64,000 bases of DNA from a virus. Positions within the stretch are counted from its first letter, which is position 1. The number at the start of each line of letters is the position of its first letter. Below the pieces are notes generated by a model, which searched no databases, was not told the DNA's origin, and saw nothing but the letters and a program-made list of their open reading frames with translations. Both the position numbers and the translations under genes were made by a program. The stretch lies in IMG/VR virus record IMGVR_UViG_3300042924_006768, positions 1 to 64,000 of that record. The stretch is one strand, 5' to 3'. This document shows, piece by piece, positions 2,618 to 7,630 of the stretch.

Positions 2618-4126
2618 TTAACCTTTCATTACTTTCTTAATTATATTCTTAAAGTAGTTTTCATTAACATCATCGCCTTTTTCAGCTCTGATTCTTTCTC
2701 TTAATATTTCAACGAACTCATCTTTAATCATTCCAATGAACTCAGTTGTTTTGTAAGGTCCGAATCCACCACCTAATGCTGATGCTTGGAAATTAGTGAT
2801 ACACTTATGTCCACCACTATTATTCTTAATTACATCATAAGCTGTTGTATATACTGAATCCAATACTGATTGTTCAAACTCACTAAGTTCAACATATGGT
2901 TTTGACATCGTTTTACTTACAATTTTTTGCCATTCTTGTAAACCTCTTTCATAATCAGGATATTTTTTAGACAAGAAGTTTTCAAATTTTCTTGGTATTT
3001 CATTATAACCTTCAAGTGCATCACCATAAAAAGATAACAAATCCTTTAATGTAAACCCAACACTCTCACCAGGAACAAATCTCTTACTAGTTTCAGCAAC
3101 TCTTTTAAGTTTACCCGCAGTTATTTTAATTTCACTTAACTCAGGTTTTCTTCTTTCAATAATACCTCTATTAATTTCACCCAAGTCAATTCCTTTCAAT
3201 CCTCTTTGTTCTTTGAATGGGTTACAAGATACTTGTAGTAAACCTACAGAACCCCAAGTTATTACTTGGAAATCAGCATCAGGATAAATATAGAAACTAG
3301 CATACCTATCATATGAACCTGGTTTAGTCATACTTCCACCACCATCTTTGATAATAATACCATCCTCAAACTTCTGTTTTGCATAAGTTTTCATTTGTTG
3401 GAGGTATTTCTCTCTATTCATTTGTAGTTCCTCAACACCTGACCAACCCTCTTCTTTCATAATTTGTCTTATCTTGTTGAAGATACTGATTAGAGATGGT
3501 TCACACTCCATTACCAATCTATCCAAGAATCCTTTTTTATTCTTAAATGCCAATAATAGTTTGTTTGTAACCAAACCCATTAACATCTTATTTCTTTCAA
3601 CTGGTTGTCCCTTATCAATCTTAATAACATAATTGATAACATCATCCATAGTAATTCCCATAGCTCTAAAGTTAGCGGAATCCACAGTTGAAATTAATTT
3701 GATGTCAGCTGAAGGAAATATATCTCTTGGTGATAATACACCTGAAATTGTTTCCACATTTGACCTTGCTGACTTGAAACTTGTTGATGTATCTTTTTCT
3801 ACACCAGATTGTGTATCGTGGTGGTCAGTATGAATAACAAACATTGGTTTTCCATGAGCAAAATCAACTAATACGGGCATAACATCACCACTTGCATCTG
3901 GTTTTTTTATAGCCCATTCGTCACCACCATATTGGATAATCTCAGCATCAACAACTTTGATACCATTATTTTCCAAGTATTTTTTCATTCCTAAAGCAGA
4001 CGTTACACCATCCAGTCAAAGGTCCTGATGAAAGTAGACCTTCGCTTTTTTATAGCGAAGAGCAAGAGAATTGATATCTCTAATTCCACTTTCAATCAGG
4101 ACCATTTTGGTTTTAATTGTATTCAT
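2618..4126 (-). CDS. DHH-family phosphoesterase with in-frame TGA inside the catalytic motif (possible ribosomal hop)
   Basis: From the ATG at 4126 the frame gives 36 residues ending VYFHQDL, then TGA (4016-4018), then LDGVTSALG and 450 more residues without a stop. Removing TGA-CTG gives FHQDLDGVTSALG, which is motif I (HxDxDG) of DHH phosphoesterases. The other motifs are intact downstream: VLVDFAH (II), HTDHHDT (III) and STVDSANF (IV). The family cleaves phosphodiester or phosphoanhydride bonds with Mn ions (RecJ-type exonucleases, nano-RNases, pyrophosphatases). An alternative is a truncated product starting at the ATG at 3988, which would lack motif I. The upstream HNH gene ends one base before this start codon. 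Family assignment is firm; the recoding is inferred. Confidence 0.8.
4013..4021 (-). promoter_or_regulatory. Candidate stop-hop recoding site CTT-TGA-CTG
   Basis: Two leucine codons (CTT, CTG) flank an in-frame TGA. If peptidyl-tRNA-Leu leaves CTT and lands on CTG, exactly 6 nt are skipped and the product reads HQD-L-DG, the intact catalytic motif. A +1 shift at this site, as in the RF2 gene, instead runs into TAA after four codons. TGA is used as a genuine stop elsewhere (for example at 7627 and 1234), so global recoding is unlikely. Confidence 0.55.
4021..4103 (-). repeat. Long inverted repeat / mRNA structure abutting the TGA site
   Basis: Bases 4021-4035 and 4088-4103 are complementary over 15 bp with a single bulged base (minus strand GGTCCTGATTGAAAGT with ACTTTCATCAGGACC). 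Inside the arms are a perfect 6-bp hairpin (CTTCGC/GCGAAG, 4040-4045 with 4055-4060) and a smaller one (GAATT/AATTC). The 3' arm ends on the first base of the CTT codon preceding the TGA, so the structure would re-form directly behind a ribosome paused there. The element lies entirely within coding sequence. Confidence 0.75.
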
Positions 4127-5032
4127 TTATTTTTTTATTAATAAATATTGTGTTTTATTAATTAGTTCATCATAAGTTATTGAACATTTTTCTTGTTTAG
4201 AACAATTTTCACTTTCTGTAATAACTTCTAAGTTTTCTTTAGCACTAATAATTTGTGGTGGTATATTTTTTTTATATCCCTCACTAATACTAAACCTATG
4301 GTCTAAGTGATGTTTTCCCCTACCAATAGGTAAATTATTTGGGTTTATAATTTCTTTATAAGTTCTATAGTTTCTTGCTGTTAAAGCTCTTACAATCTTA
4401 TCATATTGTTTCCACTTTTTTATTTCATCATCACTTAATTTAAGTTGAATTGATTCATAAAAACATTTTTCACATATAAACTTTTTGGTTTTACGAACAA
4501 AATTACAATATGTTTTTTCTGATATGTGATTGTTTTCACATTGTACTTTAATTTTACTATGTTTTCCATTTAATACTAAAACATCTAATAGTTGAAAATT
4601 ATTTTCATTTGTGACTTTTCCCAAGTATGATTCATTGATAATAACTTGGTTCTTTTTGATTTTGACTTCATCTTTGATTGATGGATTTTTACTTCCCTTC
4701 CACTTCTCAGAAAACATTTTTTTCATTTTACCAAGTTTTTCTTCATCAAAAAAATCATCCCATTTTCTATTATCACCATATCTCCCATTACCCTCACCAG
4801 TCAATTGACAAGGACGACATATTTGTGTCTCAAAGGACATCTTAGGTTTTGTCAAATGACCAGCATTAATTGAGTGTAATTCGTTTGGTGTTTTACAATT
4901 TGGGTTATCACAAGTCCAAATAACCTTAAAGGCTGTTGTACCTTTAACATTTGTTAGATTAATATTCTCAAATAAATCATAATGAACAACTATTGATTTA
5001 CTATAAATGGGTTTCCAAATTGATTTAATCAT
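4127..5032 (-). CDS. HNH homing-type endonuclease
   Basis: A 301-residue free-standing endonuclease of the type common in T4-like phages. The N-terminal half has zinc-binding Cys pairs (CDNPNC, CRPC) and a second pair set at CENNH/CEKC. The C-terminus carries the HNH region: HHLDHRFSISEGY, then ENLEVITESEN and SKQEKCS. Such enzymes cut alleles lacking their gene and spread by repair. Its stop directly precedes the ATG of the interrupted DHH gene, so the likely target lies in that flank. An ATATTTAT motif lies 17 nt upstream, so it seems to have its own promoter. Confidence 0.85.
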   Translation of the reverse strand: MIKSIWKPIYSKSIVVHYDLFENINLTNVKGTTAFKVIWTCDNPNCKTPNELHSINAGHLTKPKMSFETQICRPCQLTGEGNGRYGDNRKWDDFFDEEKLGKMKKMFSEKWKGSKNPSIKDEVKIKKNQVIINESYLGKVTNENNFQLLDVLVLNGKHSKIKVQCENNHISEKTYCNFVRKTKKFICEKCFYESIQLKLSDDEIKKWKQYDKIVRALTARNYRTYKEIINPNNLPIGRGKHHLDHRFSISEGYKKNIPPQIISAKENLEVITESENCSKQEKCSITYDELINKTQYLLIKK

Positions 5033-6094: not shown

Positions 6095-6123
6095 CAAACA
6101 AAAAAAGGAGCTTATTCAGCTCC
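6095..6123 (-). terminator. Rho-independent terminator overlapping a stop codon
   Basis: Stem GGAGC/GCTCC, extended by neighbouring pairs, with seven T after it. The loop contains the TAA stop of the 6112-6963 methyltransferase, so termination overlaps the gene end. Confidence 0.8.
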
Positions 6124-6963
6124 CTCTTCAAATTCTATTTTCATTTGTTTCTTTTTATCCACAAACGCTTGAACCCTATCAGTTCCAATCTTTGTATAAT
6201 TTGGACTTAATTCTATTCCAATCCATCGTCTGTCCAATACTTCAGCCGCAACCATTGTTGTTGCACTACCACAGAATGGATCCAACACAATATCATTTTT
6301 GTAGGTCAAAATCTTTATTGCTTTTGTTGGTATGTCCATACTAAAGGTCGCTTTCGTTAATGTCTTGGTATCAGCAAAGTAGCTCCATTGACCATAAACC
6401 AATTCCATAAACTCTTTTTTATCTTCATCAAGGTATGTCATTTTGGTTTTACCATCTTCTTGGACAACTGGTGTTCCTATCCATTGTGGTTGTCCTTTAG
6501 TTTGTTTTTTATGGAACTTCTTATATGCTAATATTACACATTCTTTTGGGTTGTAGATATAAGGGCTAGAACTATTCATCCAAGAACCCCAAGCTGTAGT
6601 TTTACTTCTATGTGGTGATTGTTCTTCCAAATCAACCACACCAAAAAACTTAAATCCAACTTTTTTCATCAACATCCAAAACTCAGCAACCATAAAAACT
6701 CTTCCACCTCTATCCTGAACATTTATTTCATAAGGAATGTTTAAACTAATTCTTCCATCCTCTTTTAAAACTCTGAAAGCTTGAGTTAACCATTTCTCAG
6801 TCCATTCCCAATATTGTTCCATTGATAAACCATCATTGTAATCATCATATGCAATATTAACATTATATGGTGGACTGGTAATAACTTGGTCAATACTATT
6901 TTCAGGGAAGGTGGACATAACCTCAACACAATCCCCATTTACAATTTTTCCTATTGGTAACAT
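6112..6963 (-). CDS. Adenine-N6 or cytosine-N4 DNA methyltransferase (beta class)
   Basis: A 283-residue amino-methyltransferase. Motif IV, TSPPYN, lies near residue 30 and the SAM-binding motif I, LDPFCGSATT, near residue 230, the order of beta-class enzymes. The N-terminal GDCVEVM and the C-terminal RRWIGIELSPNY (motif III/X region) also fit. It transfers a methyl group to an exocyclic amino group of A or C; which base is not evident. No restriction endonuclease gene is adjacent. It is followed in the same orientation by a C5 methyltransferase-like gene 22 nt upstream, so the two may be co-expressed. Confidence 0.93.
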   Translation of the reverse strand: MLPIGKIVNGDCVEVMSTFPENSIDQVITSPPYNVNIAYDDYNDGLSMEQYWEWTEKWLTQAFRVLKEDGRISLNIPYEINVQDRGGRVFMVAEFWMLMKKVGFKFFGVVDLEEQSPHRSKTTAWGSWMNSSSPYIYNPKECVILAYKKFHKKQTKGQPQWIGTPVVQEDGKTKMTYLDEDKKEFMELVYGQWSYFADTKTLTKATFSMDIPTKAIKILTYKNDIVLDPFCGSATTMVAAEVLDRRWIGIELSPNYTKIGTDRVQAFVDKKKQMKIEFEEGAE

Positions 6964-6985: not shown

Positions 6986-7630
6986 TTATTTGCTAATTAT
7001 CAAATTAGGGTTAAGACAAGATTCTAAAACTTCCAAACATAATTGTTCAGGTATTTTACTTCTTTCATAACTTCCTTTTCTACCTTGAGTTCCTGTCTTA
7101 CTTCCTCTTGGTGCGGGTTGGTGATGGCATTCTTTGTTTCCATTTTTACAAAGTGGTCTTGGAATCCAAGTTTTGCTATTTGTCCATATGTCAGTTGGTT
7201 TGGCTCTTTCATCACCATATTTACAATACCATATTGTATGTCTAGTAAACTCTTGCATCCAAGGCATCTTTCTTAACATTCCCCTAGGATTCTCAATAAA
7301 GAATACCATATTTGGATTTATCATTAACCACTCTTTAATTAGAGATATAAAGTGTTGGTTAACTCCATCACATTTGATTGCGTATTCGCTTTTGGGTTCA
7401 GTTCCATTTCTATGATGGGATATTGCTGCGATTGTATATGTTGTACAATCTGGTGATGCCCATATTACATCAGGTATAAATGGTACATCACTTAATGTTA
7501 ATTTTCCTATATCTTTGGATAAGTTGATACCTTCATATTGTTCCCAATCAACAGAGAATACTTCCATTCCAAGTGATTCTGCGGTTTTTCCAATACTACG
7601 ACTACCAGCGAATAATTCTAATACTTTCAT
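6986..7630 (-). CDS. C5-cytosine methyltransferase-like protein (small phage type)
   Basis: A 214-residue Rossmann methyltransferase. It begins MKVLELFAGSRSIGKTAE (motif I). WASPDCTTYT takes the place of the usual PCQ motif and keeps a Cys, and FFIENPRG corresponds to motif VI. The C-terminal target-recognition half is much shorter than in classical C5 enzymes and holds a Cys/His-rich stretch (CKNGNKECHHQ). Length and the SPxC variant are typical of a phage subfamily. Its start overlaps the TGA of the 7627-7872 gene (ATGA), suggesting translational coupling. Activity on cytosine is likely but not certain because of the altered motif. Confidence 0.8.
   Translation of the reverse strand: MKVLELFAGSRSIGKTAESLGMEVFSVDWEQYEGINLSKDIGKLTLSDVPFIPDVIWASPDCTTYTIAAISHHRNGTEPKSEYAIKCDGVNQHFISLIKEWLMINPNMVFFIENPRGMLRKMPWMQEFTRHTIWYCKYGDERAKPTDIWTNSKTWIPRPLCKNGNKECHHQPAPRGSKTGTQGRKGSYERSKIPEQLCLEVLESCLNPNLIISK

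Follow-up and report, generated by a model that had tools for sequence, protein, structure and literature searches.

A putative translational bypass site linked to an endonuclease-like gene in the active-site codons of phage DHH-like phosphoesterase genes

A stop codon and a short gap interrupt the presumed active-site codons of a DHH-like phosphoesterase gene in many phages, and this interruption is very likely a programmed translational bypass site that resides on a homing-endonuclease cassette, an interpretation reached without protein, ribosome-profiling or mRNA evidence. The occurrence of the gap in many phages, the matched codons on its two sides, an upstream mRNA stem, selection, linkage to an endonuclease-like gene and exchange between genes are established by comparison of nucleotide sequences. 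The locus analyzed in most detail lies in a 64,000-nucleotide stretch of viral DNA (the window), taken from a virus record 91,045 bases long.

On the minus strand of the window, an ATG at 4126 directly follows the stop codon of the upstream gene and opens a frame of 36 codons plus TGA (ORF1, 4016..4126, MNTIKTK...YFHQDL) whose product ends in KVYFHQDL. When compared with relatives that lack the gap ("gapless"), ORF1 corresponds to the N-terminal part of a DHH-like protein, through the first Asp and the Leu of motif I. Its last sense codon, CTT (Leu, 4019..4021), is the putative take-off codon; the TGA stop (4016..4018) lies directly 3′ of it and is followed by CTG (Leu, 4013..4015), the putative landing codon, and the 6-nt gap consists of this stop and landing codon. 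The remainder of the gene, ORF2 (2618..4012, minus strand), runs from GAT at 4012 for 464 codons to a stop at 2620-2618 and encodes the DHH-like body. Dropping the 6 nt gives HQDLDG. A sequence-only reading of this DNA had placed TGA at 4016-4018, had called the arrangement Leu-to-Leu and had pointed out that a 6-nt skip restores HQDLDG; its coordinates and frame statements hold on re-reading.

Elsewhere at this end of the window, two adjacent minus-strand genes (810-1259 and 1234-1698) encode small proteins that share a near-identical start, MKKIVRLTESDL..L.KR.I.EQ, and then diverge; judged by sequence, the common start looks like a shared N-terminal tag. Probable DNA methyltransferase genes also cluster here (1-732, 6112-6963 and 6986-7630, minus strand). 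Two of the three match methylase families, the gene at the window edge not being among those searched.

Residues H32, D34, L35, D36 and G37 and the block T97-D98-H99-H100 are invariant in 12 gapless relatives of the interrupted gene, and we take these to be the conserved motifs of DHH-like proteins named motif I (HxDxDG) and the DHH motif. The Pfam DHH family (PF01368) was matched by all five of the gapless relatives searched, with E-values of 8.3e-5 to 3.5e-3 and scores of 18-23 bits, below the cut-off of 28.1. RecJ/DHH chains headed the Foldseek PDB list (best E 1.9e-3) obtained with a low-confidence model of one gapless protein (L006, mean pLDDT 65.8), in which motif I directly follows the first strand, residues 26-31. 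The DHH body of the window itself was not named by Pfam or PHROGs, and PDB sequence searches returned one marginal rhodanese row and otherwise nothing. Two distant megaphage relatives have HKDLDG unbroken, among annotated phages the DHH protein has two distant relatives (E 1e-5), and one relative, at 31%, lies on a bacterial genome contig. The DHH proteins of L084 (7404 onward), L145 (4686 onward), L082 and L091 carry long C-terminal additions; the one in L084 may resemble a SET-like domain, and the one in L145 may be like a peptidoglycan hydrolase.

The prevalence of the interruption was assessed with a protein search and with three sequence patterns. Comparison with homologues had been proposed as a check in the sequence-only reading; among 67 related loci found with the DHH body, motif I is unbroken (H[QI]DLDG) in 60 and contains a stop (YFHQDL-stop-LDG) in 7. 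A degenerate pattern for HQD-L-stop-L-DG found 37 stretches, 36 of which are DHH genes interrupted in frame and one a chance match. An upstream-region pattern that was blind to the gap found 76 stretches, comprising 46 DHH genes with a stop after the Leu, 2 gapless DHH genes and 28 unrelated stretches; it required no stop, yet 46 of its 48 DHH loci had one, and it was through this pattern that further gap lengths came to light. The 70 stretches found with the third pattern were 49 known contigs and 21 chance matches, with no gap lengths beyond those known. A CTN take-off codon was required by the HQD-L-stop-L-DG and third patterns but not by the blind pattern or the protein search; the Gln codon CAG was required by the blind and third patterns but not by the HQD-L-stop-L-DG pattern; and the landing codon, for which UUN was also allowed in the HQD-L-stop-L-DG pattern, was wholly free in the blind pattern. 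In all, the same site is interrupted in 49 viral contigs from 45 metagenome ids, not counting the window. These include several near-copies, and two equal the window at this site. Such recurrence rules out chance and assembly error, the latter a possibility that the sequence-only reading had left standing. Identical sequences were collapsed to one in the 170-nt grouping and in the exchange, endonuclease-linkage, codon and synonymous-control counts.

Among 26 distinct sequences, the gap is 6 nt in 19, 8 nt in 2 (8-nt loci: L118, L145), 9 nt in 2 (9-nt loci: L122, L123, L130, L128, L138) and 11 nt in 3 (11-nt loci: L113, L116, L117, L114, L119, L131). A stop lies directly 3′ of the take-off codon in all 26 (TGA 20, TAG 4, TAA 2). 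Both the take-off codon (CTT 22, CTG 2, CTC 2) and the landing codon (CTT 19, CTG 6, CTA 1) are Leu CUN codons in every one of them, always from the same codon box although not always with the same third base. The same Leu in gapless relatives is encoded by UUA or UUG in 32 of 34 distinct sequences. The presence of CUN at both ends corresponds to what re-pairing of one tRNA-Leu would require. The Gln codon upstream of the take-off codon is CAG in 25/25 gapped versus 3/34 gapless sequences. In the 9- and 11-nt gaps of L113, L114, L119, L122 and L128, a Shine-Dalgarno-like GGG lies a little upstream of the landing codon, a feature for which a 6-nt gap is too short.

These properties bear on whether the stop is simply decoded. 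Readthrough or a reassigned stop, with the extra residues tolerated in motif I, is compatible with 6- and 9-nt gaps, which leave the frame unchanged. Gaps of 8 and 11 nt, however, shift the frame, so that readthrough cannot yield the protein in those members and is ruled out for the family as a whole. Nor does any reassignment fit, since TGA, TAG and TAA all occur at this one site; in the window, ATG-initiated ORFs of at least 150 aa terminate in TAA (39), TAG (5) and TGA (4). The spacing of motif I is, moreover, kept in every related locus of the protein search other than the 7 gapped ones, and we consider readthrough or reassignment highly improbable. A +1 frameshift of the release-factor-2 type at CUU-UGA-C might be suspected from the core CTTTGAC, which we take to be that of the prfB site, and from the SD-like AGGA ahead of it. 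In the window, the +1 frame reads D-W-M-V-stop, confirming the earlier statement that it ends after four codons, and other members have TAG or TAA stops, CTG or CTC take-off codons and 8-, 9- or 11-nt gaps; a frameshift of this type is thereby ruled out, for the window by its +1 frame and for the family by the variation in stops and gap lengths, and its probability is close to nil.

A stem, P1, lies in the fold of the 90 nt preceding the stop. In the window it comprises 17 bp formed by a 5′ arm at 4085..4102, with one bulged base at 4094, and a 3′ arm at 4022..4038 that includes the Shine-Dalgarno-like CAGGA and ends directly 5′ of the take-off codon (all minus strand). Two smaller hairpins inside P1, P2 (4082-4077/4069-4064) and P3 (4061-4054/4046-4039), occupy the inner region at 4039..4082 and differ among phages. 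Standard pairs occupy 98.1% of the P1 cells across 25 distinct sequences, compared with 65.3% and 58.5% for P2 and P3, respectively. Compensatory change is seen at two P1 pairs, 13/81 (GC in 13, AU in 11) and 7/87 (AU in 3); covariation is modest, as 8 of the 17 pairs are invariant and both arms also encode conserved residues. P1 retains 15-17 of 17 pairs in 24 of the 25 distinct gapped sequences, its effect on translation being inferred, versus only 6-13 of 17 at the same positions in 34 gapless genes. Stability was compared with that of 200 versions of each sequence made by random synonymous recoding that followed the codon use of the gene itself. No recoded version was as stable as the natural one in 24 of the 25 gapped sequences (mean z -7.8 over all 25); for 34 gapless genes the mean z was -1.4 and the lowest -4.0. 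The 90 nt after the gap showed no excess structure (mean z -0.8, 25 sequences). In the window fold there is no take-off hairpin: the unpaired bases run from the second base of the take-off codon through the stop to the second base after it.

The strong structured RNA adjoining the gap could also be taken to mean that the 6-11 nt are removed from the mRNA by a tiny self-splicing or processed element and not skipped by the ribosome. Rfam gave no match at the gathering threshold for five loci covering all four gap lengths, however, and a stop after the take-off codon and matched Leu codons are features of bypassing with no role in splicing. To our knowledge, excision of 6 nt from an mRNA has no precedent, and we regard it as very unlikely here. 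A search of genome contigs with one exact P1-arm pattern gave no match. When the collected loci were scanned for a take-off codon, stop, matched codon and strong 5′ stem, 85 distinct segments were found; those with FHQD are the gapped DHH family, and the others, of which two GC-rich contigs supplied the majority, were discarded on visual inspection, so that other bypass genes are not excluded.

Downstream of the gap, the landing frame contains no stop before the normal end of the body, or before the contig runs out, in every group except one (the L083 group, below). Its dN/dS is 0.045-0.286 in 17 pairs, including pairs of 8-, 9- and 11-nt members; the pairs were hand-chosen, and several body dS values exceed 1. 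On these substitution rates, purifying selection acts on the body when it is read in the landing frame. The 27 codons preceding the gap give dN/dS values between 0 and 0.324 in 11 pairs and of 1.36 in one, L079/L080, with 5 of the 17 pairs left undefined; selection on the ORF1 protein appears less clear than for the body. The ORF1 peptide resembles the N-terminus of gapless relatives, and no nascent-peptide signal in it could be separated from ordinary protein conservation.

The exceptional group consists of five contigs (L083, L090, L099, L108 and L107, the last cut off at the contig end) with one common 170-nt sequence, in which the 3′ arm of P1 and the gap are present and the 5′ arm is missing. 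This is the only one of the 25 sequences to lack excess structure (66 of its 200 recoded versions were as stable) and the sole group with a further nonsense codon in the body, an in-frame stop at body codon 84 in the four of five contigs that extend there. Its dN/dS (0.146-0.147) is not raised, and any decay would therefore be recent. Since its upstream protein resembles that of the gapless L135, the group looks like a recombinant. The coincidence of stem loss with an additional nonsense codon is a natural test of the stem, though no more than a hint from one event. A second such test is L135, which is gapless and has no P1 and on the body tree is placed within the 11-nt clade; L150 carries the same segment. 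Both retain the stretch TCTACTTTCACCAGGATCTT, and precise loss of the gap is possible in these two sequences.

The second nonsense codon of the L083 group and the less clear selection on ORF1 would also fit a split gene, in which translation stops and restarts downstream to give a short peptide and a shortened body, or a dead enzyme of which only the cassette is kept. In the window, a Met codon at 3988, 8 codons past the gap, begins a 456-aa ORF. This Met is not universal, however, being replaced by Ile in L080, L095 and L119 and by Val, which may also start translation, in L102. Restart at this position would drop motif I in all members, and it has no need of matched CUN codons, a stem or a stop after the take-off codon. 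Together with the low dN/dS of the body, these observations make a split gene or dead enzyme unlikely. Simple decay is likewise rejected, as the body is conserved in the landing frame, the codons are matched and the stem is dedicated. The preference expressed in the sequence-only reading for a hop over readthrough or decay thus gains strong comparative support, though without peptide, ribosome-profile or reporter data: gaps of 6, 8, 9 and 11 nt occur with three stops, CUN codons match at both ends, a dedicated stem is present, and the body evolves under purifying selection when read in the landing frame.

The gene upstream of ORF1 (4127..5032, minus strand) encodes a 301-aa protein, and its stop codon abuts the DHH start codon. 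The protein has cysteine pairs, and H242, D244-H245, N267, N276 and K279 are invariant in 11 sequences; we take this H-x-D-H...N...N..K pattern to be an HNH motif. The top VIA structural row was an HNH nickase (Z 4.7, rmsd 4.6, 73 residues, 200-282), barely above unrelated rows. Pfam, PHROGs and NCBIfam gave no HNH family, the PHROGs matched (5104 and 23051) have no known function, and Foldseek found nothing significant. The endonuclease label is therefore only probable, resting as it does on a motif assignment by eye and a weak structural match.

The HNH-like gene and the gap are closely associated. In the widest alignment search, the HNH-like protein was found at 21 loci, and in each of the 20 contigs that continue downstream (near-copies among them; the 21st stops at the contig end) a gapped DHH motif lies 93-135 nt downstream of the gene. 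Conversely, a full HNH-like gene precedes 13 of 30 distinct gapped versus 0 of 41 gapless DHH genes (Fisher's p 2e-6). This count required at least 1200 nt of upstream sequence, and the gapless L135 and L150 were therefore left out; the p value ignores relatedness, and L107 (L083 group) and L131 (near L119) were counted apart. Of the other 17 gapped genes, 16 have no HNH-like gene and one has only a remnant. Several gapped genes without the HNH-like gene retain a similar short tail (YLLIKK) before the start codon, and in L091 and L109 a 29-residue HNH-like remnant ends 134 nt before the motif, which suggests, at the level of sequence, that the endonuclease has been lost from a cassette that remains.

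Comparison of individual loci indicates that the 5′ segment is transferred between diverged DHH genes. L105 and L082 are 99.4% identical over the 154 nt up to the landing codon, with bodies that are 58.2% identical. Contig L009, which carries L105, and L006, one gapped and the other gapless, are 96% identical over 2310 nt upstream; downstream of the gap the first 210 nt differ slightly and positions 210-600 are identical. The segment before the gap has been swapped out between them, and ~0.9 kb in front of the gene in L006 is missing from L009. On the body tree, for which bootstrap values are not fully settled, the gapless/gapped label needs 10 changes, at least 5 of them forced by well-supported branches. 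Because the element is diverse and moves between genes, the recent 6-nt insertion mutation entertained as an alternative in the sequence-only reading, private to this phage, is rejected. That reading had included neither the mRNA stem nor the linkage to an endonuclease-like gene, nor the other stop codons and gap lengths.

We propose that ribosomes translate ORF1 to the Leu CUN codon that has the stop next to it and pause there for take-off. The peptidyl-tRNA-Leu would then release the take-off codon, the mRNA would slide by 6, 8, 9 or 11 nt, and the tRNA would re-pair with the second CUN, with decoding restarting at GAY-GG. The outcome would be an uninterrupted HQDLDG and an active DHH (RecJ-like) phosphoesterase. 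Since P1 extends right up to the take-off codon, the ribosome would enclose most of the 3′ arm, which could refold only on forward movement. In a refolding estimate for the window, which assumes that the ribosome footprint covers 15 nt of mRNA upstream of the P-site codon, the free RNA has -16.1 kcal/mol at take-off, -19.0 after 6 nt, -25.0 after 11 and -35.4 after 15; in this model, forward movement of the ribosome is downhill. By analogy with a proposal made for the 5′ stem-loop of T4 gene 60, refolding of P1 behind the ribosome would pull the mRNA, and CAGGA before the take-off codon and GGG in the 9- and 11-nt gaps might assist. At the DNA level, cleavage of gapless DHH genes near motif I by the HNH-like enzyme would allow the 5′ segment, with its stem and gap, to spread; the gapped allele would then be immune to cutting, and the hop would keep the invaded enzyme gene working. 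Cutting of gapless alleles and immunity conferred by the gap are inferred because the exchange borders adjoin the gap, and the hop and the motor role of P1 are inferences as well.

Bonocora and colleagues reportedly described, in PNAS in 2011, the T4 gene 60 bypass together with a mobA homing-endonuclease cassette. In the T4 record, gene 60 has a 50-nt bypass and is preceded on its 5′ side by gene 60.1 and a mobA pseudogene. In the accessible portions of two sources, the 5′ stem-loop of gene 60 is said to act as a motor or to promote directional sliding (PMC5009743, PMC11194080). Like gene 60, the locus described here is a phage gene with a short early ORF1 (46 codons in T4, 36 in the window), a stop directly after the take-off codon, a matched landing codon and a 5′ stem upstream of take-off, and in both an HNH-type endonuclease gene lies 5′ of the gapped gene, the T4 cassette being described as mobile. 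The two differ in gap length (6-11 versus 50 nt), in codons (Leu CUN versus Gly GGA) and in product (a DHH-like phosphoesterase versus a topoisomerase subunit). Unlike in T4, the stem ends at the take-off codon and there is no take-off hairpin in the window, which makes it less likely that the system is the same as that of T4, not that it works like it. The DHH family also has many alleles and several gap lengths, its host gene is not split by the endonuclease, and the endonuclease ORF is full-length where present, whereas T4 mobA is a pseudogene.

Other systems offer partial parallels. Synthetic "stop-hops" (Weiss et al. 1987) were test constructs, and the authors of a 2016 review, in those sections of it that were available, knew of no natural in-frame stop hopping (PMC5009743). 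The 6-nt DHH class is of the stop-hop type and, unlike the synthetic constructs, is conserved and has a stem. The same sections report 81 bypass sites in 12 genes of Magnusiomyces mitochondria, seemingly independent of mRNA context (PMC5009743). The DHH family shares with these the many short bypassed inserts, and mobility appears in the title of a review cited there; it differs from that single organelle in that a single site, accompanied by a dedicated stem, recurs in the same gene across many phages. Suspected bypasses in the Streptomyces phage Hau3 terminase and a Prevotella loescheii adhesin (29 nt) are likewise hops proposed in a phage or bacterial gene (PMC5009743), but in other genes and with other signals, and no link to a homing endonuclease or an allele family is described in the text available. 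Counterparts with shorter gaps have, according to that text, long been presumed (PMC5009743). A literature search, whose coverage left out most subscription papers, found no report of the gapped DHH family.

Knowledge of programmed bypassing in bacteria and phages has so far been based on one well-studied case, T4 gene 60. We think it probable that the DHH genes represent the first family of short hops to be found in nature, true in-frame stop-hops (CUN-stop-CUN, 9 nt for one Leu) among them, that this family arose independently of T4 gene 60 and is driven mainly by one 5′ stem zipping behind the ribosome, and that in many phages the hop disguises a homing endonuclease lodged in the active-site codons of a gene they need. 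The family supplies natural alleles, 26 of them distinct, that differ in gap length, codons and stop, along with close gapless sisters as controls and a stem-less member. With these, three matters become directly testable: whether a 5′ stem acts as a motor, how small a gap can be, and how homing endonucleases and bypassing are connected. If the proposed mechanism is true, the gap-length series (6, 8, 9 and 11 nt) and the broken stem-less member would constitute a natural experiment on the distance of a stem-driven hop. The findings also suggest that readthrough and decay are not the only possible explanations of an in-frame stop in a viral gene.
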